Below are positions 23,960 to 57,049 of a stretch of DNA of 64,000 nt, one piece after another. The stretch lies in contig PMYL01000049.1 in NCBI GenBank assembly GCA_003170825.1, positions 1-64,000 of the forward strand. The letters run 5' to 3'. Origin of the DNA: Acidobacteriaceae bacterium (GTDB lineage Bacteria; Acidobacteriota; Terriglobia; Terriglobales; Acidobacteriaceae). The notes under the pieces are model-generated. The model saw nothing but the letters and a program-made list of their open reading frames with translations, was not told the origin of the DNA and made no database searches. The translations under genes were made by a program, and so were the position numbers. Positions within the stretch are counted from its first letter, which is position 1. Every line of letters begins with the position of its first letter.

Positions 23960-25009
23960 ATGTCGGGTTGCTGGGCGATCGAGAACTATGCTTACCGTTC
24001 GTGTCCGCGGCCCGCGCGGGAATTCGACTTTGCGGTTTCACCGCACAACCACTCCGAGCACTCGGTTGAGAACCTGGCCTCTCTGAACGAGGTGGTGAAG
24101 CTCGGGTTCATGCGGCCCTTCCGGCACATCCTTCAGTCGGCATTCGGGCTGGCGAAGGTTGCCGGCCTGAATTATGCCGAGGTCTCCTACCGGCCTCCGC
24201 AGACGGCCGAGGACGTGTTTCTGGTGGAGTCCTCAAGCGTTGCGCCTTTAGGCTTCGATGGCGTCCATGTGGGGATTACCGACCATGACGAAATTGCCGG
24301 AAGTGTCGAGCTCCAGCGCGAGCGTCCCCAAGATGCGCACCGCAATCCTCTCGGCGAAGAGCTTTCGCTGCGCTTTCAGGACTATCTCTTCCACCTGGGA
24401 ATCACGGGGTTGCCCGAGTCCGGCGTTCAAGAAACCCATGCCAGTCTTCAAGCGGCAGCCCGTGCGAACCGGCTGGACGATTTATTTGAAATCCTGCGCG
24501 CCAGCGGATGCCTGGTGGTGTTCAACCACCCACTGGTTCCCTGGGGCAAGGACCGGGACCGCAAGATTCCGGCCGAAGAGCTTCTGCGCCGGTACGGCTG
24601 GGCGATTCATGCCCTCGAATACAACGGAATGCGCAGCCGTGAGGAGAACGACCGCGTTCTCCAGTTGGCTCAGTCCGTTCACAAGCCGGTAGTCGGCGGC
24701 GGAGACAGCCATCTGCTGCTGGCCAGCTCGGTGCTCTCGGTTTCGCAGGCTGGCAGCTATGCGGATTTCGCGGCGGAAGTAAAAGAGGGCCGCGCCGTGC
24801 CCCTCATCACGCCGATGTACTTTGCACCCCTGGGCTGGAAGATCTTCCTGCGTGTGCTTTATTTCATGGCCCACTACCGGCAGATCGGCCATTTCCGGGG
24901 CCAGCCGGTGCGCGATTTGCTTGTGGCGAGAGCGGTGCTTCTGGATCCCATCGGATATGCTTCCCGCGGTTTCCTGGGTTTGACTTCGGCTCTCGGCCTG
25001 GTGCGCTGA
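23960..25009 (+). CDS. PHP-family metal-dependent hydrolase
   Basis: A 349-residue protein with the four PHP metal-binding signatures in order: HNHSEHS near residue 32, GITDHDEI near 108, VVFNHPLVPWG near 193 and GGGDSHLLL near 252. PHP domains hydrolyse phosphate esters using two or three metal ions. The C-terminal 80 residues are hydrophobic and basic (YFAPLGWKIFLRVLYFMAHY), suggesting membrane association. I chose ATG 23960 after GGAAAGGGAC. It is the first intact gene of the cluster, 52 bases before the first carrier-protein gene, and may remove phosphate from a lipid intermediate; that role is inferred. Confidence 0.75.
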   Translation: MSGCWAIENYAYRSCPRPAREFDFAVSPHNHSEHSVENLASLNEVVKLGFMRPFRHILQSAFGLAKVAGLNYAEVSYRPPQTAEDVFLVESSSVAPLGFDGVHVGITDHDEIAGSVELQRERPQDAHRNPLGEELSLRFQDYLFHLGITGLPESGVQETHASLQAAARANRLDDLFEILRASGCLVVFNHPLVPWGKDRDRKIPAEELLRRYGWAIHALEYNGMRSREENDRVLQLAQSVHKPVVGGGDSHLLLASSVLSVSQAGSYADFAAEVKEGRAVPLITPMYFAPLGWKIFLRVLYFMAHYRQIGHFRGQPVRDLLVARAVLLDPIGYASRGFLGLTSALGLVR

Positions 25010-25061
25010 ACCTGAAGTATGGTGCGATAAGCCCGGGTGCTATACTGCTGAAACGACCACT

Positions 25062-25325
25062 ATGGCCACCGTTAAGGAACAACTAAAGACGATCATTATT
25101 CGCAGCCTGCGAATCAGGGACTTGACCCCGAAAGAACTGCGCGACGATCAACCGCTCCTTGGCGGCGATCTGGAGATCGACTCCATCGATATTCTCCAGC
25201 TCATTCTTGAGATTGAGCGGCATTTCGGCATCAAGCTGGTGGACGGCGAATTCGACGAAAGCGCATGGAAGAGTATCGATCGTTTGGCCGCGACCGTCGA
25301 AGCGAAGATTGCGGCAAGGACTTAA
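25062..25325 (+). CDS. Acyl carrier protein (first of two)
   Basis: An 87-residue carrier protein. The phosphopantetheine attachment serine is in GGDLEIDSIDILQLILEIE near residue 41, within a typical four-helix acidic ACP sequence. It sits between the PHP gene and a radical SAM gene (28 bases downstream). A TATACT sequence at 25041-25046 could be a -10 box, but no good -35 is seen. It probably carries the growing acyl/polyketide chain for the KS/CLF pair encoded downstream. Confidence 0.92.
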   Translation: MATVKEQLKTIIIRSLRIRDLTPKELRDDQPLLGGDLEIDSIDILQLILEIERHFGIKLVDGEFDESAWKSIDRLAATVEAKIAART

Positions 25326-25353
25326 CATTTGTATTCCATGAGGATGTTTCCCC

Positions 25354-26829
25354 ATGCCGACCTTCGATAGGAAGAAACCAGCACGGGTTCTGCTGGTGGA
25401 AGCCAATAATATGAATAAGTGGGTGGGGACGACCATGCCCTACGAGATGCATGTCCCCCCTTTGGGCCTCATGTATCTCGCGTCCTACGCGCGCACGGCG
25501 CTGCCGGGGATCGAGTTCCGCATTGTCGAGTCCTCCCTGTCTTGCCCGGACGATGAGCGATTCATCCGCATCCTGAACGAGTTTCAGCCGGATGTCGTGG
25601 GCGTCCGCTCCATCGCCTTCTTTCTGGAGGAACTTCAGCGGATCGCCGGTTTGGTGCGCGCCCACAGCGACGCTACCCTCATCGCGGGCGGCCCCATCGT
25701 CAAGGCGTACAAGCGCCGGCTCTTCGAGGAAGTGCCGGAGCTGGAGATCGCCGTGAAAGGGGAAGGCGAGCAGGTTTTCGTCAACCTCCTTTGCGGAGAA
25801 CCGCTTGCTTCGATGGCCGGAGTCTTATACCGGACCGACGACGGGGTGGTGGAAAACGAAGACCAGCAGGAAGTGGCGAACATCGACAGCCTGCCCTTCC
25901 CCGCGTACGACTTGATCGACCTGAATGAGTACCAGCGTCAACTGAGTTACGCTTACAATCATCGCCGCCAGGGAGTGCTGCTCACCAGCCGCGGCTGCGT
26001 GTATCATTGCACCTATTGTTTCAGCCATTGGAAGCGCATCCGCTTGCGCAGCGCCGCCAACATCTTTGAGGAGATCACAGAGCTCCACGTCAGGCACGGG
26101 ATCCAGGACTTTTATGTCGTCGACGATATCTTCAATGTCAACTTGAAGCGCTCGATGGACCTGTTCGGCATGATCGTGGCGGCGGGGCTCAAACTGCGGT
26201 TCTATTTCGTCAATGGCTTGCGCGCCGACATCACCAGCGAGGAGTTTGTGGATAGCGCGCTCAAAGCCGGCGCCGTGTGGTTTACCTACGCCGTCGAATC
26301 GGCCGCGGAAGAGATTCAGCGCCTGGTGCAAAAAAACCTCGACCTGGAAAAGGCCAGGCGCATCATCGCTTATACGCAGCGCCAGAACGTGGCCGTGAAC
26401 ATATCGACCATGTACGGCTTCCCCACGGAGACCCGCGAGATGGCGCAACGCACCCTCGACTTTCTGGGCGAACTGCCCAAGCCGTCGTTGTTGCCCTATC
26501 ATTTTTGCTTGCGCTTCTTTCCCGGCTGCGATATCAACCAGCAGGCCATCGAGGCCGGTTGGGATCCGGAACGAATGGGGATGACCAGCCGGTTCTCCTA
26601 CAACGATATGCCGATGGGCACTCCAACATTGTCGAAGCACGAGATGACCGACATTCAGCTTGAGTATCACCGCCGCTTTGGAATGAGCAATCCCGCGGCC
26701 GTCGACGGCGCGATTCGCACTCTCCGCTCCATCGGATACAGCGACACGGAGATCCTTCATATGTACTCGGTGTTGAAGAGGAAAGTAATTCACGATGTGC
26801 GTGAGTTATTGACGGCTGGTGGCGATTGA
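25354..26829 (+). CDS. B12-binding-domain radical SAM enzyme (1)
   Basis: A 491-residue enzyme. An N-terminal cobalamin-binding-type fold covers about residues 10-150 (PPLGLMYLASYARTALPGIE, then IAGGPIVKAY and VKGEGEQVF). A radical SAM domain follows with SRGCVYHCTYCFSHW (Cys215, 219, 222). A C-terminal region fills the rest. Members include methylases (HpnP, HpnR), cyclases and BchE-like enzymes. The canonical DxHxxG cobalamin ligand motif is not visible, so base-off B12 binding is uncertain. It is translationally coupled to the next gene by a TTGA overlap. Likely it modifies an ACP- or lipid-bound chain; substrate unknown. Confidence 0.85.
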   Translation: MPTFDRKKPARVLLVEANNMNKWVGTTMPYEMHVPPLGLMYLASYARTALPGIEFRIVESSLSCPDDERFIRILNEFQPDVVGVRSIAFFLEELQRIAGLVRAHSDATLIAGGPIVKAYKRRLFEEVPELEIAVKGEGEQVFVNLLCGEPLASMAGVLYRTDDGVVENEDQQEVANIDSLPFPAYDLIDLNEYQRQLSYAYNHRRQGVLLTSRGCVYHCTYCFSHWKRIRLRSAANIFEEITELHVRHGIQDFYVVDDIFNVNLKRSMDLFGMIVAAGLKLRFYFVNGLRADITSEEFVDSALKAGAVWFTYAVESAAEEIQRLVQKNLDLEKARRIIAYTQRQNVAVNISTMYGFPTETREMAQRTLDFLGELPKPSLLPYHFCLRFFPGCDINQQAIEAGWDPERMGMTSRFSYNDMPMGTPTLSKHEMTDIQLEYHRRFGMSNPAAVDGAIRTLRSIGYSDTEILHMYSVLKRKVIHDVRELLTAGGD

Positions 26830-27731
26830 CGCGCTGGTACCGGCACCGTTTTCACAACGTCCCTGCTCTCCAGATTGTGTTTTGGATCATGCCGCGGCTG
26901 CCGCGCTTTGTCCATCCCCCCATGGCGGCGGTAACGGCGCTGATTTTTTTCTTCCTGTTGAAGCGGGAGCGCAAGGCAGTGGCCGGCAATCTGCGCCGGG
27001 TCTCGGGCAGGCGCGGGTTGGCCTTGTATTGGAAGGTTTATTGCGTCTTCTATTCGTTCTGCGATTTGATGGTTTCCTATTGCTACGTCCCCCAGGCCAG
27101 CCATGCGCAACTGCTCTCCATGCTGGCAGACAAGGATCGTGGCGCCGCCACGATCGACCGATGCCTCGAAGCGGGCAAAGGGCTCATTGTGTGGACGGCA
27201 CACCTGGGGAATCCTGAATTCGCCTCACGCCTGCTTGAAATGCACGGCCGGCCGGTCAATGTGGCGCGCGTGGTCGAGGACAAACCGGCGGAGAAATTGC
27301 TGCGGGACAGGATGGCCACCGAGCGGCTCAGAATCGTGGACCTCAGAAACGGCGCGCGGGCCACAATCGAACTCTTGCAGGCCTTGCGCCGGAATGAAAT
27401 CGTGGCCATCCAGGGGGACCGCGTCTACAACCCTCGTCATGGCGCCGAGGTTCCGTTTTTTTCCAAACCGGCCGCCTTTCCGCTGGGTCCATTTCTGCTT
27501 TCGCAGGTCTCGGGCGCTCCGGTGCTGCCCGGTTTCGTGATTCGCCTGGGTTGGCTGCGCTATCGCGTTCTGATGGGCGACCCAATCCTGCCGGCTGCTT
27601 CCGGCGACGGGGATGCCGGCCAACGCGCCGGTTTGCGCCAGGCTGTCCGGTTCCTTGAAACAACGTTGCCGGTTCATTATGATCAGTGGGTGAATTTCTT
27701 CGACTTCTGGCAGGTAAATTCCAGTGACTGA
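26826..27731 (+). CDS. LpxL/HtrB-type lysophospholipid acyltransferase
   Basis: A 301-residue protein of the LpxL/LPLAT family. It has an N-terminal hydrophobic anchor (MAAVTALIFFFLL), the catalytic HxxxxE motif in WTAHLGNPEFASRLL near residue 122, and EIVAIQGDRVYNP near residue 197. These enzymes transfer acyl chains from ACP to a lipid or sugar acceptor at the inner membrane face. Start is TTG at 26826, overlapping the previous stop by 4 bases. In aryl-polyene clusters an acyltransferase of this type attaches the product to a glycerolipid or lipid A-like anchor. A similar final or intermediate acylation is likely here. Confidence 0.85.
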   Translation: MTRWYRHRFHNVPALQIVFWIMPRLPRFVHPPMAAVTALIFFFLLKRERKAVAGNLRRVSGRRGLALYWKVYCVFYSFCDLMVSYCYVPQASHAQLLSMLADKDRGAATIDRCLEAGKGLIVWTAHLGNPEFASRLLEMHGRPVNVARVVEDKPAEKLLRDRMATERLRIVDLRNGARATIELLQALRRNEIVAIQGDRVYNPRHGAEVPFFSKPAAFPLGPFLLSQVSGAPVLPGFVIRLGWLRYRVLMGDPILPAASGDGDAGQRAGLRQAVRFLETTLPVHYDQWVNFFDFWQVNSSD

Positions 27732-28932
27732 TATGCAGGAAACCATTGTCGTTACTGGAGCCGGCGTTATCAGCCCCTATGGCATCGGGCTGGCCGCCTT
27801 GCAGGCGGGCATGTTATCGGGCAAGTGTTGCCTGGCGCCCGCCGGGGATATGTATCCCGATTTTGAAGGAACCACGGCCCAGGTTTGCGGACTGCCGTTT
27901 CTGGCGGAAGGCGCCAGCTCCCGCTACTCTCGCACGGATCGCCTTGCGGCGGTGGCTGCTCAAGACGCGGTAGCGGACCTGGATCGCGAGAGCCTCGCCT
28001 TCCGGGAGAGCGGTGTCGTGATGGCCAGCACGGTCGCGGGCTTATCCGAGATCGATCCCGGAATTGTGCAGGATCCGATCGCCTGGTACCGGCACGGCGG
28101 TCTGGCGCGGGCCGCCTCCTACCCGGTATCGCACGTTGCCGCCACGGTCGGTGAGAGCTTGGGGATTCACGGACCGAACTGTGCCGTCTCCGTGGCTTGC
28201 GCTTCCGGGGCGATGGCGATTGCGCTTGCCGCCAACCTTCTGCTCGACGGAGCCGCGCCCATGATTCTGGCAGGAGGCAGCGACGCGCTGTGCCCGTTCA
28301 CGTTGAGCGGGTTCAACTCCCTCCAGGCGTTGGATCCCGGCCCCTGCCGGCCCTTCGACCAGAATCGCAAGGGATTGAACCTGGGAGAAGGAGCCGCGGT
28401 TCTCGTGCTCGAAACGCTCGCCGGAGCTGCGGCGCGCCACGCCAATATTCTGGCCGTATTGCGTGGATGGGCCATGACCAATGACGCATCGCATCCCACT
28501 GCTCCGCACAAAGACGGAATCGGTTTGGCGGATTGCATGCGCCGCGCCATGGAAATGGCCGAGTGCGGCGCCGATGAGATCGGCTATGTGAATGCCCACG
28601 GCACAGGCACGCTCCTGAACGATAGTGCGGAAGCCAATGCCTATCAGTCCGCCTTTGCCGGACGCAGCCGTCCCGTTCCCGTATCCTCGACGAAGTCCTA
28701 TTTTGGACACTGCCTGGGAGCAGCCGGCGCCCTGGAGGCAGCCATCACCATCACGGCCATTCGTTGCGGCGCGCTGTTCCCGACGCTGCGGCTGACGGAC
28801 CCCATCGAGAGCGAAGGCATCGACTGGATCCGCGGAGAAGTCAGACACCAGCCGCTACCGCTGGCCATGTCGGTTTCAGCTGGCTTTGGCGGCAGCAACG
28901 CGGCACTCATCTTCGGGAGCGGCCGCCCATGA
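27724..28932 (+). CDS. Beta-ketoacyl-ACP synthase, FabF type (KS-alpha)
   Basis: A 402-residue condensing enzyme with an intact active site: Cys159 in SVACASGAMAI, His292 in NAHGTGTLLND, Lys324 and His329 in KSYFGHCLGAAG. It extends acyl-ACP with malonyl-ACP. It overlaps the acyltransferase gene by 8 bases (GTG start at 27724; an in-frame ATG is at 27733). It overlaps the next KS-like gene by ATGA. That second protein lacks the cysteine, so the pair looks like the KS/chain-length-factor heterodimer of type II PKS and aryl-polyene systems. Confidence 0.92.
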   Translation: MTDMQETIVVTGAGVISPYGIGLAALQAGMLSGKCCLAPAGDMYPDFEGTTAQVCGLPFLAEGASSRYSRTDRLAAVAAQDAVADLDRESLAFRESGVVMASTVAGLSEIDPGIVQDPIAWYRHGGLARAASYPVSHVAATVGESLGIHGPNCAVSVACASGAMAIALAANLLLDGAAPMILAGGSDALCPFTLSGFNSLQALDPGPCRPFDQNRKGLNLGEGAAVLVLETLAGAAARHANILAVLRGWAMTNDASHPTAPHKDGIGLADCMRRAMEMAECGADEIGYVNAHGTGTLLNDSAEANAYQSAFAGRSRPVPVSSTKSYFGHCLGAAGALEAAITITAIRCGALFPTLRLTDPIESEGIDWIRGEVRHQPLPLAMSVSAGFGGSNAALIFGSGRP

Positions 28933-29978
28933 CTGCGAATTTGCCGGCCATTACCGGAATCGGTTCCGTCACTCCCTATGGTCCCTTGGCCGGACTCATC
29001 CCCGCCTGTTCCTTGCAACCCAGCGCCATCACCGCATGGACAACCGCCGGGCTCCGGCGAGCGTTTCTCGTAGAGCCGTTTCGCCCCGCCAGCGTGGTGC
29101 CGGGCCTGAAGACCAGGCGCCTGGATCGTCTGTCGGCGTGGGCGCTGGTAGCTTCTTCGCTGGCCATTCAGGATGCCGGGATAGACCTCAGCAAGGTGGA
29201 CCGGTCCAGGGTAGCCGTGGTCTTCGCCACCGGCTTCGGCTGTGTTGAACTCACGGAATCCTTCTACCAAAGCGCAGCCGTAAATGGTTGGTCCGGAACC
29301 GATCCCATCACCTTCCCTGAGACGCTCGCCAACGCTCCGGCCGCTCACGTGGCTTTGTTTCACGGCCTGCGCGGACCGAATATCATGGTCGACAGCAAGA
29401 GCTTTGCGGGCGAATGCGCGCTGATTCAAGCCGCATCCCTGATCCGCCACGGGCAGGCCGACCTGGCTATTGTCCTTGCGGGAGATACGCTCGCCCAGGC
29501 TGTTTATGGATGGTACGAGGCGGCAGATCTGCTGTCGCCTGCCTGCTATAACTCGGAACCCTTGACGGAAGCCGCCGGCTTTGTTCCCAGCGAAGGAGTA
29601 GCCGCGTTGGTGCTGGAGCCGGTTGGCAGCCGGGAGGGGCGCTCTTATGCCAGTCTTCGCTCGGGCCGCTGGGCGGCAGGCGGACAGCCTTTCAAGACCA
29701 TCCGCCAGATGCTCGGCGGGTCCGTTCCAAATCTCACCATCAGTGCCGGAAATGGCGCGCCTTGCGCCACCAGCCCTTTAACCAGTCTGGCCCGCGAGAT
29801 TGCCGGCCCCGATGCGCCCATCGTCCCGCCGCAGGCCGTTGCCGCGGGTTTGGCTGAAACTGGTGCTCTGCTCCACTTGATCCTGGCTTTGAGCAGCCGG
29901 CCACAGAGCGGTCAGGCTCTCCTTTTAGCAACATCGGGCAAAAGTGGCTTTGCCGCGATTCATCTGGAGCTGCCTTGA
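28929..29978 (+). CDS. KS-like chain-length factor (KS-beta)
   Basis: A 349-residue thiolase-fold protein homologous to the preceding KS but shorter. At the position of the nucleophile the sequence reads NIMVDSKSFAGECA, so Ser158 replaces the cysteine of the VDTACSSS pattern. The HGTGT and KxxxGH motifs are absent; the late region reads AVAAGLAETGALLHLILAL. This is the expected state of a chain-length factor, which pairs with KS-alpha and sets chain length. The start ATG overlaps the KS stop as ATGA, and its own stop overlaps the TTG start of the KASIII gene. This chain of overlaps implies coupled translation and equal dosage. Confidence 0.85.
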   Translation: MTANLPAITGIGSVTPYGPLAGLIPACSLQPSAITAWTTAGLRRAFLVEPFRPASVVPGLKTRRLDRLSAWALVASSLAIQDAGIDLSKVDRSRVAVVFATGFGCVELTESFYQSAAVNGWSGTDPITFPETLANAPAAHVALFHGLRGPNIMVDSKSFAGECALIQAASLIRHGQADLAIVLAGDTLAQAVYGWYEAADLLSPACYNSEPLTEAAGFVPSEGVAALVLEPVGSREGRSYASLRSGRWAAGGQPFKTIRQMLGGSVPNLTISAGNGAPCATSPLTSLAREIAGPDAPIVPPQAVAAGLAETGALLHLILALSSRPQSGQALLLATSGKSGFAAIHLELP

Positions 29979-30979
29979 ATTTGAATGTGCGAATTGCATC
30001 CGCGGCGTACGCCGTTCCACCCGACTCTGAGACCGTGGAAGCGATCCTGGAGCGGGAACGAACTCGCGTGGAGACAACGCTGGCTCCGCTGAGCCCGCTG
30101 GCGAGACGAAAAGCGGTGGAAGGCCTCGGACTGAGCCGCGTCCGTGTCTGCGGCGTCAAGCAACCTTATGATTTGGTGCTGGAAGCCGCTTCAACGGCAA
30201 TTGCGGAAGCCGGAATCGCTGCGCGAGATATCGATCTCATCCTGGATTACAGCACCTTCCCCGGAGATAACTCGCAGTATCTTTCCTTCGCCCACAAACT
30301 CAGCGCTGAACTTGGGGCCGATAACTCGTTGAATCTGAGTTTCAAAGCCGGCGGCTGCGGAGCGCTGCACCTGGCCATCAAGACCGCTCTGGGCTGGATG
30401 AGCACAGATGACAACATTCAGACCGCGCTGCTGGTCACCGGCGATATGGCGCCCCTTGAGAACCGGTCCTTGCTCCCAATTACGGTACAGGGCGACGCCG
30501 CCAGTGCCGTCATCCTGCGCCGCCAAGGCACGGACGGCCCGCTGCTGCTCGGCGTGGAGGCGATGACCCTCGGCCATCTGTACAAAGCTATTGCCTTGAC
30601 CCAGGCCGACGGCCGCATCCAGATTGAGGCCGATGCCGTGTGCATTGAACACAAAGTAATGCCGATCTACTATCTCAACCTCTTCCGTCTGGCAAACAAA
30701 GTCCTGGCGGCGTCTTCCCTGAGCTTGAGCGATGTAGATCATTTCATCTATTCCAACATCAGCTATCGGGACCGCGATGGTTTCCGCAGAATGGTTGGAC
30801 TTCCCGAAGGCGGCCTGCCGCCGACCCCCATGGCGGAGTATGGACACACCTTTGCCAGCGATCTGATGATCAACTATGTTCACATGCGGCGCGATGGCCT
30901 GATTCGGCCTGGGCAATTGCTGCTGTTCGCATCCGCGGGTGTCGGATTCACATGGGGGGTGACGCTTGCCCGAAGCTGA
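29975..30979 (+). CDS. KASIII-like (FabH-family) ketoacyl synthase with altered triad
   Basis: A 334-residue thiolase-fold protein of the FabH family. The nucleophile region is FKAGGCGALHLAI (Cys128) and the glycine-rich loop is VQGDAASAVIL. By hand alignment the usual His (HQAN motif) is replaced by Ser260 in HFIYSNIS, and the usual Asn (GNTSAAS) is His291 in YGHTFASD. The histidine has therefore apparently moved to the Asn position. FabH relatives with non-standard triads may transfer acyl groups or use unusual starters. TTG start, overlapping the CLF stop by 4 bases. It probably primes the chain or joins it to a second moiety. Confidence 0.82.
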   Translation: MNLNVRIASAAYAVPPDSETVEAILERERTRVETTLAPLSPLARRKAVEGLGLSRVRVCGVKQPYDLVLEAASTAIAEAGIAARDIDLILDYSTFPGDNSQYLSFAHKLSAELGADNSLNLSFKAGGCGALHLAIKTALGWMSTDDNIQTALLVTGDMAPLENRSLLPITVQGDAASAVILRRQGTDGPLLLGVEAMTLGHLYKAIALTQADGRIQIEADAVCIEHKVMPIYYLNLFRLANKVLAASSLSLSDVDHFIYSNISYRDRDGFRRMVGLPEGGLPPTPMAEYGHTFASDLMINYVHMRRDGLIRPGQLLLFASAGVGFTWGVTLARS

Positions 30980-32495
30980 AAGCGATCTGCTTCACGAATG
31001 GCTTAGGCGCACGGCAGCTCTTACGCCCGGCGCCCCGGCCATTGTTGAAGACGATCGGGTCACGTCCTTCCGGGAGTTATTCGAGCAGGCTGCGTCACTG
31101 GCATTGCGGTTCGTCGAACACGGCATCCAGAAGCAGGATCGCATCGCCTTGGTGCTGCCCAAGACCACCGATGCGATCGTTTCTATCTTTGCCTCTCTTC
31201 TTGCCGGAGCTATCTATGTCCCCATCCATCCCCAGTGGCCGAAGGAACGAATTGAAGCCGTTCTGGAGGACTGCGCGGCCCGGTTGGCGATCGAAGGCGA
31301 CAGTTACCCGCCGCGAATCCGCGATTGCCGGACCGGTGCGTGCATCCCTTGGCAAGCACAGTCAACGGCTCCTGCAAGCCCAACGGATTTTGCAAGCGTT
31401 GTCTCGCTGTCCAAGGCCGATGCCCGCGACCCGGCCCTCATTTTGTTTACCTCCGGCTCAACGGGCCGGCCCAAGGGAGTCGTCCTTTCTCACCGTGCCG
31501 TAGGCGCTTTTGTAAGATGGACCGCGCGCGAGTTTCAGATCTCTTCCCATGACCGCATCGCGTGCCCGTCGCCGCTGGGCTTCGATCTTTCCACCTTCGA
31601 TGTTTTCAATATGGCCTTATGCGGCGCAACCTGTGTTCTTGTTCCCGGTGACATCGTGTGGATGCCGCGCTTCCTGGTCCAGTTCCTGCGCCAGGCCCGC
31701 ATCACCTGTTGGTATTCAGTGCCGTCGATCCTGGCCGGCATGTTCCAGGAGGGACGGTTCGCGGAGCATGAGTATCCCGACCTGCGCGTCATTCTCTTCG
31801 CCGGCGAGGTTTTTCCCGGCCCAGGCGTGGCACGTTTGCAGGCCGCGGTTCCACAGGCTGTTTGCGCCAACCTCTACGGCCCGACCGAGACCAATGTGGT
31901 CACGTGGTGTCGTGTGCCGTTCGATTTCGATGGATCACAGCCGCTCCCGATCGGCCATCCGTGCCCCTACGCCACAGTCACGGTGGACGCTGAGAGCGGC
32001 GAACTGCTCGCGGGCGGCGAGTCCCTGATGAATGGTTACTGGAACCGTCCCGAAGATACACAGCGCTCCTTCGTCCGGTTGAACGGCAAACAGTATTACC
32101 GCACCGGGGACCGCGTGTCGCTGGCGCCTGACAGCAGCTACTTATTCGTGGGAAGGCTCGACCGGCAGGTAAAGCGCCGCGGCTTCCGCATAGAACTGGG
32201 CGAAATTGAGGCTGCACTGGCTCGCCATGAAGATATACTGGAGGCGGCTGTGATTGCTGCCGAGGATGGGCGGAGAGGAACCATCATCGCTGCCTTTGTC
32301 CGGGTTCGCGCCGCAGGCGCCCTCACCTTGGTCGAAGCCAAGGCACACTGTGCGCGGACACTGCCGCCGTACATGGCGCCCGACCACATCCTGTTTGTGG
32401 ATACTATTTCCAAGGGAAGCCGGGGCAAGATCGATTACCTGGCCCTGGGCAGAATTGCGGAAGGACTGAACCGTGGAAATCAAGACCGAAGTTAG
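30966..32495 (+). CDS. AMP-dependent acyl/aminoacyl ligase (adenylation enzyme)
   Basis: A 509-residue stand-alone ANL-family enzyme. Adenylation core motifs in order: LILFTSGSTGRPKGVVLSH, NLYGPTETN, YYRTGDRVSL, GRLDRQVKRRGFRIELGEIE, and a C-terminal GSRGKID with the catalytic lysine. The sequence is close to D-alanine-ACP ligase/NRPS A-domain types, so the substrate may be an amino or hydroxy acid as well as a fatty or aromatic acid. TTG start at 30966, overlapping the KASIII gene by 14 bases. A carrier protein follows with a 23-base overlap and is the probable acceptor. It likely activates the starter or a head-group acid. Confidence 0.88.
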   Translation: MPEAESDLLHEWLRRTAALTPGAPAIVEDDRVTSFRELFEQAASLALRFVEHGIQKQDRIALVLPKTTDAIVSIFASLLAGAIYVPIHPQWPKERIEAVLEDCAARLAIEGDSYPPRIRDCRTGACIPWQAQSTAPASPTDFASVVSLSKADARDPALILFTSGSTGRPKGVVLSHRAVGAFVRWTAREFQISSHDRIACPSPLGFDLSTFDVFNMALCGATCVLVPGDIVWMPRFLVQFLRQARITCWYSVPSILAGMFQEGRFAEHEYPDLRVILFAGEVFPGPGVARLQAAVPQAVCANLYGPTETNVVTWCRVPFDFDGSQPLPIGHPCPYATVTVDAESGELLAGGESLMNGYWNRPEDTQRSFVRLNGKQYYRTGDRVSLAPDSSYLFVGRLDRQVKRRGFRIELGEIEAALARHEDILEAAVIAAEDGRRGTIIAAFVRVRAAGALTLVEAKAHCARTLPPYMAPDHILFVDTISKGSRGKIDYLALGRIAEGLNRGNQDRS

Positions 32496-47624: not shown

Positions 47625-47637
47625 GGAAAGGGTCCAG

Positions 47638-48735: not shown

Positions 48736-51278
48736 TGGTCCGCTTCATGCGCCTGGTGGGCCGCCTGGTGATTGGTCATCCGGGGATGGTGACCGGCCTT
48801 GCACTGGTTCTGACGTTGTTTCTCTATGCCAACATTCACAACCTGCGCACCGGCACCGACCTGACAGACCTGTTTGGCAGTAGCGATCCGCAATGGCAGG
48901 CCGCGAGTCAGATCGGCAAAGAGCTGGGCTATGGCAATCAACTCTTCGTGCTGGTCGAGGCCCCGGAGGGCGGAGCGGACACAACCGGCGAGATGGAGGA
49001 GATGGCCGACCGTCTCACCGCCGAGATGCAAGCCAGCGGGTTGTTCAAGCAGGCGCGCTGCGGCTTGAAGGACGAAGAACTGCTCAACATCGTGCGGTTC
49101 TTTACCTGGAACTTTCCGTCATTCGCCCTGCCCGATCAAACCGAAGAGTTCAAACGGCGGCTGGACCCCAAACAGATTCATCAAAACATTCGCCGCTCCG
49201 CCACCGAACTGATTACGCCATTCTCCACTCTGGGAGCCGGCTACTTTGTTGCGGATCCACTTGGCCTCATGGGAGTGGCGGCGCAGAACAGCCAGGGATT
49301 CTCGCAGTTCGCCAGTTTCGACCTGGCATGGGGAAGCGGGAACCGATTCTTCAGCAAGGACCACAAGGCGCTGCTGATCATTGCCGAGCCTCGCCAGTCG
49401 GCCGTGGACTTCAAATTCGCCGGGCAAACAGTGCAATGGACGCGCGAGCACATCCAGTCGATTGCCGCGGAGCCCGCCTTCCGCGATTCCGGCGTGCGGG
49501 CCATTCAGGCCGGCGCTTACGTTTACGCGGAACAGGACCACAAGTTCATTGAAAAAAATATTCGCCTGGTTTCCCTGGTCTCGATCATCGGCAATCTGGT
49601 GTTGTGCCTGCTGGTCTATCCCCGCATTCCGATGCTGCTCCTGTCGCTGCTGCCCACCAGCCTGGGCATTCTATGGACCACGGGCGTTGCGAGTTTCTAT
49701 CCGGGGGAAGTCAACCTTATCAGCCTGTCCTTCATTGCCATCCTGGCGGGACTGGGAGACGACCAGGTCGTGCATTTCTTCAACCGCGCGCCGCAGGAAT
49801 GGGCAAAGGGCGGGACACTGAACGCCGCCGTGCTTCGCACCTATGAAACCACCGGGGTTAGCATTGTCCTCTGCATTGTGACGGCAGCAACGGCCACCGC
49901 GGCATTGGCCACCTCCGGATTCAAGGCGCTGGCGGAGTTCGGGTTCATCCTCACGGTCGGAATGTTCATGATGATGTTCCACACCCTGCTGACCGTTCCC
50001 GCCCTGATGCAGCTATGGTGGAGGTTTTCCAGGCCGCGCGCGCCGGAGACCATCACTTTCCGGCTCCTTCCCTTGTTGGCGCGAAAATCCGTCGACTTTG
50101 TGGGCCGCCACGCGCGCCTCGCCGTCGCCTTTTCGTTGGGTGTTTTCCTGCTGTCATTGTCGATGCTGCCGCAAATCAAACTTGGCGGCAGCTTCGCGAT
50201 CGCCGGCGGCGCCGACAACCCGGCCGGTGATGCGCAGAATCGCCTTTCCGCCAGATTTGGCATTGGGGGCAGCCCGAATGTGCTGTTAATCGCGGGTGGC
50301 CAGCAGGATGTCCTGCGCAGGGCTGAAGAGCTGACGGCCGGTCTGGAAGCGTATCGGCAGCGCGGCGTCCTCAAATCCATCTTCTCCCCCACAAACCTGC
50401 TTCCCTCTGCCGACACGCAGAGGCAACGGGCCGCCTCGCTGGCAAATATCGATCTGGCTGCGTCCGCCCGCGCTTTGGAGGATGCGCTTCGCGAAAACGG
50501 CTTTCAGACAGAGCCGCACAAGCCCTTTATCGAGCGGCTGCGAAAGCTGGGCCAGGATGCGCAACCTGTCACCCTGGAAACGGCCGCCGAATTCCTGCCG
50601 TCAGGGCTGCTCGACGACAGCATTCGCAAGACCGGGAACGGTCACTACGTCGCGGCGATCGCCTATTATGCCACCAATCCCAGTGATACCCAGGCTATTC
50701 CCGACGCCGTGCTGGACTCGTGGCGGAATCAATTTGGCCCGTTCGTGGATTTCTCCTTCGAGAAGATCAACCGCGACATGCAGAGCCGGGTACTTCACGA
50801 TAGCCGCAGGGCATTGGTTTGGACGGCGGCTGCCATCGTCCTGATCGTCTATCTCAGTTTCCGGAACCTCCGGGTGTCGCTGGTCGTATTGATGCCGATC
50901 GTATTCGCCATCATCGTAACTTTCGGGCTGTTGCGCCTGGCAGGACACCACTTCAGCTTCATGTCCATTACCGCGATTCCACTCATTATCGGCATTGGAA
51001 TCGATAACAGCATTCATTTGGTCCGCCGCTACCTGGAGGACGATCGCAACAGCATTCTCGCCATCGCAAAGGCTTCAGGCGCGGCGCTGATTCAGTCCAA
51101 TCTGACGACGATCGTCGGCTTTGGCGCGCTCATGGCCTCAAGTTTCGCGCCCCTCGCCGAGATGGGACTCGTGACTTCCCTGGGAGTCGCCCTGGCTCTG
51201 GCCGGAGGCCTCTGGATCGTTCCCGCCGTCATTTTTTTGGGCGAAGGAAAAAGAGACCGGAGAGCCACGGCCCAATAA
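48732..51278 (+). CDS. MMPL/RND-family lipid exporter
   Basis: An 848-residue membrane protein with two repeats of one N-terminal helix, a large periplasmic loop, and five clustered helices. The second half shows FSFMSITAIPLIIGIGIDNS followed by HLVRRYLEDD, the RND/MMPL proton-relay region; the first half has IAILAGLGDDQVVHFFNRAP. MMPL proteins export lipids and glycolipids; homologues occur in aryl-polyene and hopanoid (HpnN) clusters. ATG overlaps the methyltransferase stop. With the LolA-like carrier and the big outer-membrane protein it forms a plausible trans-envelope lipid route. Confidence 0.9.
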   Translation: MMVRFMRLVGRLVIGHPGMVTGLALVLTLFLYANIHNLRTGTDLTDLFGSSDPQWQAASQIGKELGYGNQLFVLVEAPEGGADTTGEMEEMADRLTAEMQASGLFKQARCGLKDEELLNIVRFFTWNFPSFALPDQTEEFKRRLDPKQIHQNIRRSATELITPFSTLGAGYFVADPLGLMGVAAQNSQGFSQFASFDLAWGSGNRFFSKDHKALLIIAEPRQSAVDFKFAGQTVQWTREHIQSIAAEPAFRDSGVRAIQAGAYVYAEQDHKFIEKNIRLVSLVSIIGNLVLCLLVYPRIPMLLLSLLPTSLGILWTTGVASFYPGEVNLISLSFIAILAGLGDDQVVHFFNRAPQEWAKGGTLNAAVLRTYETTGVSIVLCIVTAATATAALATSGFKALAEFGFILTVGMFMMMFHTLLTVPALMQLWWRFSRPRAPETITFRLLPLLARKSVDFVGRHARLAVAFSLGVFLLSLSMLPQIKLGGSFAIAGGADNPAGDAQNRLSARFGIGGSPNVLLIAGGQQDVLRRAEELTAGLEAYRQRGVLKSIFSPTNLLPSADTQRQRAASLANIDLAASARALEDALRENGFQTEPHKPFIERLRKLGQDAQPVTLETAAEFLPSGLLDDSIRKTGNGHYVAAIAYYATNPSDTQAIPDAVLDSWRNQFGPFVDFSFEKINRDMQSRVLHDSRRALVWTAAAIVLIVYLSFRNLRVSLVVLMPIVFAIIVTFGLLRLAGHHFSFMSITAIPLIIGIGIDNSIHLVRRYLEDDRNSILAIAKASGAALIQSNLTTIVGFGALMASSFAPLAEMGLVTSLGVALALAGGLWIVPAVIFLGEGKRDRRATAQ

Positions 51279-51678: not shown

Positions 51679-53181
51679 ATGAAAGCGCCCACCAGCGATA
51701 CCGCCATTGACACCGTCTCCTCTCTGTGCCCCGAGTGCGGCAAGCCGGCCCTTTCAGAAATCATCGATCGAGACGGCAAGGTCTATCAGCGGTCCCAGTG
51801 TCCCTGCCATGAATCCACCGAATCCCTGATCTTCTCCGACTCGGCTTTGTACAGGAAACTGGATGAATGGAACAAGCTGATCTTTCCGGATGCCCAGCAG
51901 CCGGCAGTATTGCCTGCCCAGGCGTGTTGCGACACTGGCAGCAACAACGAGCCAAGCCTGGCTGTCATCGACATCACGAATCGCTGCAATTTCAAGTGTC
52001 CCGTGTGTTTTGCCGAGGCCACCGGCGCGGGGAACCACTATTTCCTCGATACGGAACTGGTTACCAGGATGCTCCAGTCGCTCCTGGACCGGCCAGTGCC
52101 GTGCCGGAGCATCCAGTTCTCCGGCGGAGAGCCCACCCTGCACCCGGAGTTTCCGAAGATCCTTCGGATCGCCCGCGATCTTGGGTTCACGCATATCCAG
52201 GTGGCCACCAACGGAAGCAAGTTCGTCGACCCCGACTACGCAAAACTCTGCGAGGATTCGGGCCTGCACACGCTTTACCTGCAGTTCGATGGCATGAGCG
52301 ACGATGTTTACCTCAAAATGCGCGGCCAGCGGTTATTGGATAAGAAGATTGCGGCCGTCAAGAACGTAGAAAAGACGAACATGCGGCTGGTCCTGGTGCC
52401 GACCATCATGAGCGGCGTCAACGTCGACCAACTGGGGCCCATCTTCCGGTTCGCTCTCGAGCACAGCAAGTTCGTCACCGGCATCAGCATACAGCCGGCA
52501 GCGCACGTGGGCAGAATCGAAGTCGCAAATGGAGTCGCCGAGCCCTTTAACCTGGCCGCCATGGCCCGCGAGTTTGGTGAACAGACTGGACTGACCCGCT
52601 TCCCCGACGACTGGTTCCCCCTGAGTTCGCTATCCCTGCTCTGCCGTGCCATCGACCGCGCCCGCCAGGAAACATCGCATCCCCCCGCCAGCGATGCCCA
52701 CTGTTCCGTCGGCACCTTCTTCTACGTTGACGACGACAACAAGCCCTTCTGCCTGAGCAGTTTCTTCGATCTCGGCCGCTTTCTCCGCGGCGCGGCTGAG
52801 CTAACCCCATACGCCGAACAGGGCTTCATCGAGCGGAAGATTTCCAGGATTCGCCAATTCGGGCAGTTCTCGCAATGTCTTGATATGCGAAAGGCTCCCC
52901 CCGGACTCACGTTCCAGCGCCTGTTGCGCGGCCTGGATGCCTGGGAGGACAAGAACGAGGGAAGGTCCGAGGGCTGGACTCACCGGGGCTTTAATGGCAT
53001 CTTCGTCGCGGGAATGCACTTCATGGACGCTCACAGTTATAATCTGCGCCGCCTGAGCCGTTGTATCATCCAGTATGTCGCTACCGATGGACAACTGATT
53101 CCTTTCTGCAGTTACAACGCCGGCGCCAGGCTCCGCGAAGCCGAGGAATTGATTCGAATCGAAAACAAAGCGCCGGCATAA
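51679..53181 (+). CDS. Radical SAM enzyme of the Tes/MJ0619 (tetraether synthase) family
   Basis: This 500-residue enzyme has three features of the archaeal tetraether lipid synthase family. First is an N-terminal zinc/rubredoxin-like CPEC (17-20) with a following CPCH (41-44). Second is the radical SAM motif DITNRCNFKCPVCFAEATG (Cys103, 107, 110). Third is the C-terminal RCIIQYVATDGQLIPFCSYN block, nearly the same as in MJ0619-like proteins, with more cysteines between (DAHCSVGTFFY, KPFCLSS, FSQCLD). Tes and bacterial Mss relatives join the methyl ends of lipid chains by C-C bonds, giving membrane-spanning lipids. ATG 51679 is the only reasonable start. It lies between the MMPL exporter and the outer-membrane protein and is probably the lipid-coupling step; not proven. 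Confidence 0.85.
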   Translation: MKAPTSDTAIDTVSSLCPECGKPALSEIIDRDGKVYQRSQCPCHESTESLIFSDSALYRKLDEWNKLIFPDAQQPAVLPAQACCDTGSNNEPSLAVIDITNRCNFKCPVCFAEATGAGNHYFLDTELVTRMLQSLLDRPVPCRSIQFSGGEPTLHPEFPKILRIARDLGFTHIQVATNGSKFVDPDYAKLCEDSGLHTLYLQFDGMSDDVYLKMRGQRLLDKKIAAVKNVEKTNMRLVLVPTIMSGVNVDQLGPIFRFALEHSKFVTGISIQPAAHVGRIEVANGVAEPFNLAAMAREFGEQTGLTRFPDDWFPLSSLSLLCRAIDRARQETSHPPASDAHCSVGTFFYVDDDNKPFCLSSFFDLGRFLRGAAELTPYAEQGFIERKISRIRQFGQFSQCLDMRKAPPGLTFQRLLRGLDAWEDKNEGRSEGWTHRGFNGIFVAGMHFMDAHSYNLRRLSRCIIQYVATDGQLIPFCSYNAGARLREAEELIRIENKAPA

Positions 53182-53270
53182 CCGTCAAGCCGGTTGTCCG
53201 GCGGGTGCAGGTGAACCTTCAATATAAGTCAACTCGCTTTGCCCGATTCAAGGGCTATCGGACTCAAACT

Positions 53271-56200
53271 ATGGTGAAATCGTCGTTTGTCGCGGCAACG
53301 CAGTCCTTTCTTTGCTCGGAAGGCTTGAGGCGGGTTGCCGCTTTTCTGCTGTTTCCCGGTTTCATGCTCTTGCCGGCAAGGGCGCAAGTCGGTCTGCCCA
53401 GGGCTGCCGTTTCGATTCCTACAGACCGGAACCTCGCGGAAAGCCTGGAGGCGGCCAGGCAGTGCCAATCTCCAGGCAAGTTGATCGTGCTACCGCCGGT
53501 GCATTTTCAACTCGCCGGTGACGAAAGCTCCGGCGGCCTGTTCGAACAGCAGGCGCAAGCTGTCTTGAGCCTGCCCCAGGAATCCGAGGTCTGGCTGCAT
53601 ATAGTCGTGGGAGCCGGATCTCTTACTGGCAAGGAAACCGAGAAGCAGCTTACCGGCCGGGTTGAGGCGTTCCTGAAGCCGGCGCCACTCTCGGCCTCCG
53701 CTGTGCGCGGAGTTATCGTGGAAGTCAGTGAGCCGCTGACGGCTCACGATCTATTCGAGACCAATTTATTCGAGTTTGGGCTGTTGCGCCTCGCGGTGAC
53801 CGCTAAGTCCAGCAACGCCGCCCTGCGGCTCGCGTATGTTTTTGGCCCTGGATTTATCGGCCAGCATGGCGATATAGTGAAGCGGCTTGCCACATATTCC
53901 GATCTGTTGGGCACGACCTACTCTCAAGGCTGGCGCGCGGATGCCGCGTGGATTGCCGAACAGGCGCTGAATAAACCCCTTGTCCTCAAGCTGGACTCAG
54001 AAACCTCAGCGGCAGCGGCTCCGTATCTTGCGGCGGCGCTCGCGGCCTCCGGCGCTTCCGTCGAAATCCTCTGGTCGGAACCCCCGGATGCCAAGGCAGC
54101 CGGCCAGGTGTGCGCGGTGAACGGCTTTTTGACGCATTCCATTACCGCCAACATGCTTCGGCTGGACCCCGCGGCCCTGCCGTTCACTCTCGCGGTGGAT
54201 GGCGTGGGAAGCAGTGAGTCCCAGTGGTTTGGCAGCGGGCAGTCGCCGGACCTTGTGATTGTGGCGCATGTGAAGGGGAGCCCAGGCCAGCCGAAGACGG
54301 TCAGGCTCCAAGGCGCTGCCGCAACGCAATTCGAGGCACAATGGTACGACCCGGAGACCGGCGTCCGGCTTCCGGCAGGCGAACCGGCCAAGACTGAAAA
54401 GGGATTGGCGCAAACATGCGCCTGCGCCAGCGAGTATGCCCTGATTTCCATCCATAAACTCAACGGAGCCGATACCACGAGTTATAGCACGGTGGAAGTG
54501 AAAAGCGGAGTGAATCTCACTGTCGACGAGATCATTGCCCGCTGGCAACAGTACCGCGAAGCGCAGAATCGGAAACTGGAAAACTATCAGTCCTCCAGTT
54601 TCATGAATCTGCACTTTGAGGGCACCTCCATGGCTTCCGAGTTCGACATCTCCATGCAGCTCAAGCAGTTTTATGACCGCGCCGGACCGATGGAATTCGC
54701 CCAGACGCAGTTTTACGTCAACGGCGTGAAGTTCAACAGCAAAAACGAGTTTCCGCTGCCGCAACTCGAGCCGGAAAAGGTTCTCACGCAACCTCTCGAG
54801 TTGAAGCTCAACGAGCGTTACGAATACAAGCTCCTGGGGACGGAACAAGTCGACGGAGTCCAGTGCTATGTGGTTGGAGTTGAGCCTAAAGTACACGACG
54901 AGACTCTTTATAGCGGGAAAATCTGGATCGACGGCGCGACTTTCCGCGAGGTGAAGCAGTCCCTCAGCCAACGCGGCCTCAAGAGCAACATCGTGGTCAA
55001 TGTCGAGACCCAGAATTTCGAGTTGGTTTCCGACGGCAAGGGAAATCAGTTCAACCTGCTGCGCTCGATCTCCGCTCAGCAGACGCTGAACGCCGCTGGA
55101 CGCGATTTTGCGCTTCAACGAACCGTTCAGTATTCCGAGTACGTCATCAACGCGCCGCAATTCAGCGATGCCCTTGCGGCCGAGCATAACTCTCAAAACC
55201 CGATGTACCGCGATACCGACAACGGATTGCGGGAACTGAGAAAGCATGGCAGCGAGCGCGTCTTGGCGGAAAACAGCCAGAAGCGCATCAAGGCCGCCGT
55301 GATTGGGGCGATGTACCAAGGCACATTCAACTTTCCCATTCCGATCGCGGGCATCAGCATCGCCGACTTCGATTACCGGCACACGGGCGCGCAGCTTTCG
55401 ACGTTCTTTGCCGGACCCATCCTGGCGACCGACCTCTCAAAGCAGTACAGATCCAAGTACCGTCTGGCAGCGGATTTGGCGCTCTCCGCGCTTCCCGGCG
55501 AGAGCCGCATCTACTGTTTCGCGATACCGTCAACAGACTGCATCAACAAGACCCAAAACACGGAAGAAACGGATCAGGAGCTATGGACCTGGCAGCAGGC
55601 TGCTGGAGTGCGAGCCTCCTGGCAGGCCACCACGCATCTCAGCCTGACAGCTTCAGGGTATTTGGTATATGACATCTTTCGCAGAACCAGCGCTACCTCC
55701 AACAAATACGTGCTGCCGCGCAACGGCGTAGCTCTGCTTCCAGGCGTTGAGGTGAAGTTCAACGACAAGGGCTATCTGTTCAGCGCCGGGGGGACCAGGG
55801 GCGAACGCATCGCCTGGAAACAGTACGGATATACTCCGCCGTCCCAGCCGCTGGAAAGCGCCTACACCCTCTACCACGCCGACTTGAACAAGGATTACTA
55901 CTTCAGGAAATTCACCAAGGGAGGGTTTGATCTCGGCTACTATGGCGGAGACCAGTTGGATCGCTTCTCCCGTTACTCTCCCTCCTTCTTTTCCGAGCCG
56001 CGCCTGCACGGCATCCCCGGCGGCACGGACACTTTTGACGCCATCGCCACGGCAAACGGACATTTTGGCTTCAACATGATGGACGTCATCAAGTTCGAGG
56101 GGATGTACAGTTATGCGCGCGCGCGCAACCTGTCCGAGTCCAGCCAATTCCGCAAGTTTGACGGTGTGGAGACGAACTTCAATGTTGCCGGTCCCATGGG

Positions 56201-56303
56201 CACCTTGATACAAGGCACGGTGTCCTATGCGCTGGACGGCAACATAGCAAGATACAACTCGCGCTGGGGATTTCTCGTCATGATCTTCAAGCCGTTGCAC
56301 TGA
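53271..56303 (+). CDS. Large outer-membrane protein with a LolA-like domain and C-terminal beta-barrel
   Basis: A protein of 1010 residues with a signal peptide ([19 protein letters not shown], cleavage before QVG). Residues about 40-400 have no recognised fold. Residues about 440-620 look like LolA/LolB-type beta structure: [19 protein letters not shown], then [19 protein letters not shown]. The last about 300 residues show alternating aromatic strands ([40 protein letters not shown]) that suggest an outer-membrane barrel ending in MIFKPLH. I chose ATG 53271; a GTG at 53211 is also in frame. Located between the Tes-like and FabG genes, it may receive or insert the exported lipid. Confidence 0.72.
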
Positions 56304-56311
56304 TCGAGCTT

Positions 56312-57049
56312 ATGACTGAAATGAAGACCGCATTGGTGACGGGCGCCTCGGGGATACTGGGTGCTGCCATTGCACTGGCGCTGGGGCGCGCGGGATTCCG
56401 CGTCGCCGCGCACTATCATGGCCACAAAGAGTCCGCCGAGAAGGTAGTGGAGAGCGTGATCGCCGCTGGCGGAGAGGCGCTGGCCGTGGAAGCCGATCTA
56501 TCCCGGCGTGAGAGCGTGGCGCCGATGTTCGATCGCATCAAGCAACAGTTCGGCTCGGTCGACTGCCTGGTGAACAACGCGGGAATCAACCGCGATGTTC
56601 TGTTGGCCTTCATGTCTGAGGAGCAGTGGGACGAAGTGATCGACACCAATCTCCGCGGCACGTATTTGTGTTCGCGGTTGGCCTTGCTGGGGATGATGCG
56701 CCGCCAAAGCGGAACCATCTGCAATATCGTGTCGCCCAGTGGAGTCCGCGGTCAGGCCGGCCAGTGCAACTACGCAGCCTCCAAGGGAGGCATGATCGCG
56801 TTTACCAAGTCGCTCTCCCGCGAAGTGGGGCGATTCGGTATCCGAGTGAATGCCGTCTGCCCGGGCGTGATCCCAAGTCCCATGTCCGCCAAGTACATCG
56901 AGAAAGAGGAGAAGCGACTGCTCTCCGAAATCCCCTTGGGGCGTTTTGGCAAGCCCGAAGAGGTCGCTTCGCTGGTGGCGTTTCTGGCGTCTCCCAAGGC
57001 AAGCTACATCACCGGACAAGTGATCGCGGTAGATGGCGGGTTGCAATAA
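56312..57049 (+). CDS. 3-oxoacyl-ACP reductase (FabG-type SDR)
   Basis: A 245-residue short-chain dehydrogenase/reductase. It has the cofactor motif [16 protein letters not shown], the NNAG motif in [12 protein letters not shown], catalytic Tyr and Lys in [12 protein letters not shown] with Ser in VSPSGVRG, and the family tail [11 protein letters not shown]. It reduces 3-ketoacyl-ACP with NADPH, complementing the KS and FabZ. It starts 8 bases after the outer-membrane protein stop and closes the cluster. A decayed fragment of a close paralogue lies at the opposite border (23788-23931). Confidence 0.93.

Follow-up and report, generated by a model that had tools for sequence, protein, structure and literature searches.

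According to extracts of PMC3992019 and PMC3949708, the flexirubin, xanthomonadin and arcuflavin clusters hold a ketosynthase (KS), a chain-length-factor-like partner (CLF), a ketoreductase (KR), a dehydratase (DH), an AMP ligase and an acyl carrier protein (ACP), together with genes for a deacetylase, an acyltransferase, a glycosyltransferase, a LolA-type protein and an exporter. Enzymes of a different kind, Tes/Mss and Ger, have been studied for their part in making the core membrane lipids that serve as climate proxies. Excerpts of PMC13274423 give two PF01869 domains as the layout of the experimentally tested Ger proteins and state that Ger and PlsA are not separable by sequence alone. Here, we describe a cluster of about 25 neighbouring genes (23912–57049, ~33 kb) in which both kinds of enzyme are found together, located in positions 1–64,000 of the forward strand of contig PMYL01000049.1 from an Acidobacteriaceae bacterium (GenBank GCA_003170825.1); this whole stretch of 64,000 nucleotides is referred to as the window.

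Gene families were assigned by Pfam and NCBIfam scans of the window proteins. Like the flexirubin (flx), arcuflavin (arc) and aryl-polyene (ape) clusters as set out in the available extracts, the locus encodes a KS with a CLF-like partner, a KR, a FabZ-type DH, ACPs and an AMP ligase, as well as an acyltransferase, a glycosyltransferase, a deacetylase, a methyltransferase, a resistance-nodulation-division (RND) exporter and a LolA-like protein that was recognised only by a flexirubin model below its cut-off. Unlike those clusters, it has a proline-type ligase rather than an aryl-acid ligase accompanied in some clusters by an ammonia lyase or chorismatase, and it adds a KASIII-like enzyme with altered residues, four radical S-adenosylmethionine (SAM) enzymes, a PHP-like protein and a reductase pair. 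The cluster is best filed with the aryl-polyene kind, from which its starter ligase departs in one feature, working with tetraether-type radical chemistry. The flexirubin/arcuflavin-type core gene set is known, and polyene machinery and tail-joining-type radical enzymes are here present together. A preliminary description of this DNA knew of no described cluster with this combination, and none was found among the matches listed in the open-access literature.

The gene set is conserved and linked across 15 genomes

The enzyme classes named in the preliminary description were supported within 23912–57049 by the family scans, to which a PHP-like protein, an esterase, a polysaccharide deacetylase and a DUF2062-methyltransferase were added; a small, possibly secreted protein was likewise absent from that description (Table 1). 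The genes form two long, tightly packed runs, one from the PHP-like gene to rSAM2 and the other from the deacetylase gene to FabG, with overlaps of 4–58 bases in 11 of the 17 adjacent pairs that have a listed start; the pair formed by the Tes gene and the large-protein gene was excluded from this count because the start candidates of the latter span 53061–53370. The overlap between KS and CLF is 4 bases, and gaps of 261 and 400 bases lie 5' of the esterase and Tes genes, respectively. This grouping exceeds chance, as is evident from the overlapping packing and from the recurrence of the same set in other genomes.

That recurrence was followed using the KASIII-like protein as the cluster marker. 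The comparison genomes were mostly fragmentary metagenome-assembled genomes (MAGs), and the class and the phylum were each surveyed through a sample of their genomes. The marker was present in 15 genomes, comprising the window's own genome, three of 35 congeners (E-value 1e-112 or better, the other matches being FabH-like at 21–28% identity), ten more found by pattern scan, and genome G302. The pattern scan of a genome collection, which used two exact peptide patterns, returned 13 loci, three of which were taken to be the same records as the congeners; all 13 named records are acidobacterial MAGs, several of them from peat, and the isolate names of seven contain 'bog' or 'palsa'. Only two of 399 genomes from the class (the own genome and G302, E ≤ 1e-40) and one of 396 from the phylum (the own genome, E ≤ 1e-25) carried the marker, and the cluster is thus rare in the phylum.

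In 13 of the 15 genomes, a Tes-family gene and further genes of the cluster share a contig; in G064 and G069 the contigs are too short to show this. The B12-binding radical SAM enzymes rSAM1 and rSAM2 were found in at least 13 and at least 10 of the 15 marker genomes, respectively; these counts are lower bounds, as the misses examined fall where a contig ends or outside the sequence that was read. Locus maps, whether full or partial, contained the same genes in several orders, and the loci were nearly whole on one contig in the window, G060, G068, G018 (contig C308, where no esterase was found), G062 and G302. Two subtypes were distinguished by their Tes protein. Type A (the own genome, G018, G026, G035, G060, G061, G066, G067 and G068) carries Tes-A, the G026 copy of which is split over contig ends, and type B (G062, G302 and G063) carries Tes-B. 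In G065, Tes-B lies on one contig with the PHP, LolA, FabZ, MMPL, large outer-membrane-protein-like (OMP) and FabG genes, while KS, CLF and KASIII lie on another.

The earlier proposal of a dedicated, conserved build-and-export set that joins aryl-polyene-type machinery with Tes-family and B12 radical SAM enzymes was supported by this linkage. According to the preliminary description, the proposal would fail if the radical SAM and BadF genes were not conserved with the KS and ACP genes; Tes, rSAM1 and rSAM2 did stay linked, whereas the BadF/HgdB-like pair, the acyl-CoA-dehydrogenase-like (ACAD) gene and rSAM3 proved variable.

Two arrangements stood apart from these maps. In G064 and G065, a deacetylase–GT2–methyltransferase–KS–CLF–KASIII block is followed by a different gene in place of the ligase, and perhaps represents a third subtype. 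G018, a 75% complete MAG, carries the cluster's second half twice, in different gene orders (C22 and C308), which is either a duplicate or a mixed bin.

Table 1. Features of the cluster by position in the window, with the basis of each assignment.
Feature	Position	Strand	Basis
FabG C-terminal remnant (~47 amino acids), rearrangement seam	23785..23925	+	directly before PHP, as in G060
PHP-like metal hydrolase	23912..25009	+	HNHS, DH, NHP, GDSH motifs
ACP1, acyl carrier protein	25062..25325	+	PF00550
rSAM1, B12-binding radical SAM	25354..26829	+	PF04055 + PF02310
LpxL-like acyltransferase	26826..27731	+	PF03279
Ketosynthase (KS)	27724..28932	+	PF00109/PF02801
Chain-length-factor-like KS partner (CLF)	28929..29978	+	PF00109; ATG at 28929
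KASIII-like enzyme	29975..30979	+	PF08541; alignment to a FabH
Free-standing adenylation domain (AMP ligase), proline-type pocket	30966..32495	+	PF00501; TIGR01733
ACP2, carrier protein, probable ligase partner	32473..32754	+	NF052616, 71.9 bits (cut-off 130)
Esterase domain	33016..33678	+	PF00756
rSAM2, B12-binding radical SAM	33675..35291	+	PF04055 + PF02310
Small protein, perhaps secreted	35460..36005	-	homologues beside several relatives' clusters
HgdB/PlsR-like reductase partner	36412..38193	+	cysteine motifs; pairing with BadF protein
BadF x2 + DUF2229 protein, PlsA/Ger-type	38299..41718	+	two PF01869 stretches + PF09989
Acyl-CoA-dehydrogenase-like (ACAD), accessory	41715..43613	-	PF02771 N-terminal domain only, 25.9 bits (cut-off 22.9)
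rSAM3, B12-binding radical SAM, HpnR-like	43481..44902	-	NCBIfam HpnR, 223 bits (cut-off 650)
Polysaccharide deacetylase (NodB-like)	45046..45954	+	PF01522
GT2 glycosyltransferase	45897..46571	+	PF00535
LolA-like periplasmic carrier	46573..47202	+	flexirubin LolA2 model, 40.8 bits (cut-off 125)
FabZ-type dehydratase	47199..47624	+	PF07977; NF000582 above cut-off
DUF2062-methyltransferase fusion	47599..48735	+	PF09835 + PF13649
MMPL/RND lipid exporter	48732..51278	+	PF03176; HpnN model, 194.5 bits, under cut-off
Tes-A, Tes-family radical SAM	51679..53181	+	residues 14-491 match 7tol, E 8.9e-85; NF045702
Large protein, LolA/DUF5686-like middle	53061..56303 (start candidates 53061-53370)	+	PF18939 + PF17131, both under cut-off
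FabG-type ketoreductase	56312..57049	+	NF009466 above cut-off

The chain-building core keeps catalytic motifs and its ligase pocket resembles that of proline ligases

The catalytic features of the core were well kept among homologues. The KS, for which the best PDB match was entry 9s5h, retained its catalytic Cys in 15 of 15 homologues, and the CLF had no Cys at that position in any of 15 rows (position read by eye). The KASIII-like enzyme also kept its Cys (15/15), and the His and Asn of FabH were replaced by Ser and His, respectively, in all 14 rows that cover them; an ordinary decarboxylating condensation is therefore unlikely for this enzyme. The DS motif was present in all 13 homologues of ACP1 and all 10 of ACP2, a protein with no Pfam match at 1e-3. 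An ApeI-like model scored the dehydratase under its cut-off, and the FlxB model gave the ketoreductase 240 bits (cut-off 340). The top Pfam model for the latter, PF13561, bears an enoyl reductase name, and NCBIfam instead assigns FabG. The cluster genes scanned included no separate gene for an enoyl reductase, and the chain should therefore remain unsaturated.

The AMP ligase passed the TIGR01733 cut-off (331 bits, cut-off 317), and the best match of its pocket segment was 6o6e, a proline ligase according to the depositors of that PDB entry. The pocket reads DLFYLALVVK in 10 of the 11 rows that cover it and DLLYLALVVK in the remaining one, a twelfth row being cut short. When read by hand, D-L-F-Y-L-A-L-V-V in the window stands against D-L-L-Y-L-A-L-V-C in 6o6e, so that the pocket-lining residues, at what we take to be the usual position numbering, are identical to those of 6o6e at seven of nine positions in the window ligase and at eight of nine in G302. 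On the basis of this pocket, the substrate is most likely L-proline. Similar to the proline ligases 6o6e and 7thn, presumably of the PltF/PigI kind, the adenylation pocket is accompanied by an adjoining small carrier protein gene; unlike ligases of that kind, no conserved prolyl-carrier dehydrogenase lies beside it.

A proline pocket together with an ACAD gene raised the possibility of a pyrrole starter. The best prolyl-carrier dehydrogenase score among the seven cluster genomes scanned, 419 of the 650 bits at which the family cut-off lies, came from a different contig of G062, the own genome's best score outside the cluster was 203 of 650 bits, and none of 14 control genomes reached the cut-off. 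With no such dehydrogenase at cut-off and an ACAD gene that is not conserved, a pyrrole starter is therefore doubtful. An ornithine-lipid route, prompted by the name of the ACP model that matched ACP2, was also rejected, as the OlsH enzyme is reported in an excerpt of PMC12493201 to work without an ACP.

Two Tes clades and three B12-binding radical SAM enzymes

Like the archaeal Tes enzyme (PDB 7tol) and bacterial Tes/Mss, Tes-A aligned over nearly its full length and carried the radical SAM motif, with a score of 346 bits on NF045702; cysteines at its N and C termini resemble those of 7tol by eye. Unlike 7tol, to which it is 31% identical, it scored below the NCBIfam cut-off, lacked the CPxDCGLC motif and is set in a polyketide/export cluster. 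Identity to the window protein was 74–78% in the eight other type A rows aligned, and Tes-B is ~30% identical to Tes-A. In a tree of 32 rows (midpoint root; MjTes and two other rows lie on long branches and their placement is unsure), Tes-A formed one clade (9 rows, 100/100) on a stem of 3.84 changes per column, in the part of the tree that also contains the acidobacterial Tes proteins resembling the archaeal enzyme. This nearer acidobacterial group has seven rows with 42–45% identity to MjTes, and the one member scored, from G108, was above the NF045702 cut-off (575.8 bits). Tes-B formed one clade (4 rows, 99/94) within a group of 700-amino-acid Tes proteins that is near-universal in acidobacteria of the class. 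Two different Tes clades thus appear to have been recruited into the cluster. Across the class, a Tes-family gene was present in 369 of 399 genomes (E ≤ 1e-40), and a copy of the 38–43% identity tier in 35 of 399.

Tes genes were also seen in other settings. A second Tes-family gene (700 amino acids) of the own genome lies on contig C15 near oxidoreductase, aminotransferase and glutamate-dehydrogenase genes. The nearer-group and 700-amino-acid Tes genes are ~0.9 kb apart in G205 (C7) and ~11 kb apart in G284 (C1).

The strongest competing explanation, which we regard as possible and somewhat doubtful, is that Tes-A and Tes-B form a carbon–carbon bond within the polyketide chain, by coupling, cyclisation or other means, rather than between lipid tails, in which case the product would be a modified polyene pigment and no membrane-spanning lipid. 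The long stem of Tes-A and the absence of CPxDCGLC from its nine rows would be expected of a changed substrate, and in the window and several relatives the Tes gene is part of a polyene-type operon, with the exporter gene on one side and the large OMP-like gene on the other. Tes-B, however, belongs to the near-universal group that probably supplies the tail-joining enzyme of these bacteria. CPxDCGLC is found in MjTes and in five of the seven nearer-group proteins, and is absent throughout the 700-amino-acid group, Tes-B included, so that loss of the motif alone is no sign of a new substrate.

The three B12-binding radical SAM enzymes scored under the cut-off of every NCBIfam model among the matches listed, which for rSAM1 comprised 25 families. 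The nearest model for rSAM3 was HpnR, a hopanoid C-3 methylase, and membership of that family was rejected on its score (Table 1). Identity to the window protein was 81–86% in type A and 69–70% in type B for rSAM2, and type B copies of rSAM1 and rSAM3 were 48–49% and 61–62% identical, respectively.

The reductase pair is a subtype-specific addition

Similar to the plasmalogen synthase PlsA/PlsR and to Ger, the BadF protein has two BadF (PF01869) domains with DUF2229, has a paired partner gene and keeps its cysteines, both Cys pairs being present in 19 of 19 rows. Unlike PlsA/PlsR and Ger, the pair is linked in one subtype only and the partner resembles no PDB or Pfam entry found. The partner, at 36412, had no Pfam, NCBIfam or PDB match (PDB sequence search at E 0.1), and its putative HgdB/PlsR-like label rests on cysteine motifs and the pairing with BadF; its AlphaFold model, built from a 3-row alignment, had a mean predicted local distance difference test (pLDDT) score of 43.5. 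It adjoins the BadF gene in all loci examined except one at a contig end (G064:C869). In the window, G018, G026, G060, G061, G066 and G068, the pair shares a contig with further genes of the cluster, and in G035, G067 and G069 (Tes-A was not seen in G069) it is on a contig of its own; the HgdB-like protein had no genome match at E ≤ 1e-3 in G063 or G065, both MAGs. The preliminary description had placed ether-type enzymes in the cluster, and this was upheld for one subtype and failed for the whole type B loci. As the pair is absent from the two whole type B loci, it is an addition rather than part of the core.

In a tree of 20 rows, two of them on long branches, the 11 cluster copies of the HgdB-like protein formed one clade (100/100) apart from non-cluster copies, which suggests, along with the Tes tree, that the versions of both proteins used here are specific to the cluster. 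The HgdB-like gene was found in 124 of 399 class genomes (E ≤ 1e-40).

These data bear on whether a polyene pigment operon and an ether-lipid operon are simply unrelated neighbours, which we consider unlikely. The cluster can do without the reductase pair, the pair is also found in places where the cluster is absent, and the two halves of the cluster lie on separate contigs in G066, G035, G026 and G061. On the other side, linkage survives several gene orders, the Tes and HgdB-like clades are cluster-specific, and type B keeps rSAM1, rSAM2 and Tes despite having no reductase pair; since the radical SAM linkage is kept, the explanation is already weakened for those genes.

Slightly less probable still is that this is the acidobacterial locus for iso-diabolic acid or branched glycerol dialkyl glycerol tetraethers (brGDGTs). 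The cluster does contain B12 radical SAM enzymes, the kind to which the Grs enzymes belong, as well as a homologue of Tes and a reductase of the PlsA/Ger type. Extracts of PMC10087280 report brGDGTs for Solibacter and propose homologues of Tes, PlsAR and GrsA/B for their synthesis. Against such an assignment, the class survey found Tes in 369 and the HgdB-like protein in 124 of 399 genomes but the KASIII marker in only two, the second Tes gene of the own genome sits among unrelated genes, and the brGDGT schemes, as far as the published extracts give them, assign no role to a polyene-type KS/CLF, to LolA or to MMPL. The cluster is not assigned to the Tes or brGDGT pathway. A ladderane-type pathway, in which KS, ACP and radical SAM enzymes build an unusual fatty chain, is very improbable, as the three B12 enzymes matched the ladderane-type model TIGR04072 weakly (91, 79 and 61 bits, cut-off 360) and other families higher, and to our knowledge ladderane gene sets have no such exporter and glycosyl genes.

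Proposed pathway

From the genes, their conserved linkage and the kept catalytic motifs, all of which were observed directly, we infer a polyene, an anchor, tail joining and an ether bond, that is, an aryl-polyene-like pathway with a different starter and radical tailoring that yields an exported lipid; we give this reading an even chance. The ligase would load an amino acid, most likely L-proline, onto ACP2, and the KASIII-like enzyme, which has its Cys without the FabH His/Asn pair, would hand this starter on. KS/CLF, FabG and FabZ, in the absence of an enoyl reductase, would elongate it to a polyene on ACP1, which the LpxL-like acyltransferase, GT2 and deacetylase may attach to a glycolipid or lipid anchor. 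The Tes-family enzyme probably joins carbons of lipid tails, the B12 radical SAM enzymes may methylate or cyclise the tails, and the BadF/HgdB-like pair, in the window's subtype only, may convert ester to ether. MMPL, the LolA-like protein and the large protein after Tes, which is probably located in the outer membrane, would move the product to that membrane.

Several observations weigh against this pathway. The chemistry of the radical SAM enzymes is not readable from sequence. Tes-A is under the 450-bit cut-off of NF045702 and is without CPxDCGLC in all of its rows (0/9); the KS matches FabF at up to 197 bits and thus better than it matches 6qsp (137 bits), which we take to be an aryl-polyene KS; ammonia lyase and chorismatase families had no match among the cluster genes scanned; and prolyl-carrier dehydrogenase reached its family cut-off in none of seven cluster genomes. 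Parts of the set also vary. Among the 14 other cluster genomes, rSAM3 was present in seven (it is absent between the BadF and deacetylase genes in G061) and ACAD in five, G066 had no recognisable copy of the large protein that follows Tes, and both whole type B loci (G062 and G302) are without the reductase pair.

The fuller form of the proposal is possible and rather doubtful: a new class of envelope lipid, in which a proline-primed polyene on a glycolipid, with Tes-joined and partly ether-linked tails and its own LolA/MMPL export, would make a pigment anchored in a membrane-spanning or macrocyclic lipid. If true, a specialised pathway for an exported lipid would have recruited dedicated copies of both enzyme types studied for core membrane lipids, with two Tes clades serving the same pathway. 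Cluster-bearing and cluster-free congeners offer a testable system for the substrate range of the Tes family, and the same system bears on whether the tail-joined lipids of acidobacteria are confined to the inner membrane.

Envelope-related and accessory genes

Motifs were also kept in the remaining proteins. The PHP-like protein had no Pfam match and a weak CehA/McbA match (19.9 bits), and its putative family label is read from the motifs in Table 1, which are kept in the 11–12 homologues that cover them. HX4E was present in 13 of 13 LpxL-like proteins, TFDDGP and NHTWSH in 14 of 14 deacetylases, and DGD in 15 of 15 GT2 proteins. The LolA-like protein had no Pfam match at 1e-3 and the small protein no family match. 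The large protein after Tes was 67–70% identical to four homologues, and its AlphaFold model had a mean pLDDT of 34.6 (5-row alignment). G060, G061, G067 and G068 showed no ACAD gene, and neither did the type B loci. In the window, an in-frame TAG at ~33003 breaks the esterase frame and separates a lipoprotein-like start from the catalytic part; an intact esterase of 301–317 amino acids is encoded in G060, G068 and G302.

Flanking genes and rearrangement of the window copy

The cluster is flanked on the left by a LacI-type regulator and a tRNA-Ser gene and on the right by an S46 peptidase gene on the opposite strand. Upstream of it are a NorB-type nitric oxide reductase and a cytochrome bd oxidase pair (window 8891–11173 and 14315–16780). 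In G060 and G068 the gene order is HgdB–BadF ... Tes–OMP–FabG–PHP–ACP1 ... rSAM2, and the window order is a rotation of it, with PHP ... rSAM2 first and HgdB ... FabG second. At the seam, a FabG remnant is identical at 34 of 47 residues (72%) to residues 199–245 of the G060 FabG, and a 170-base alignment shows 78% identity to the end of the G060 FabG gene together with the spacer that precedes PHP, a pattern that would fit a tandem duplication followed by loss.

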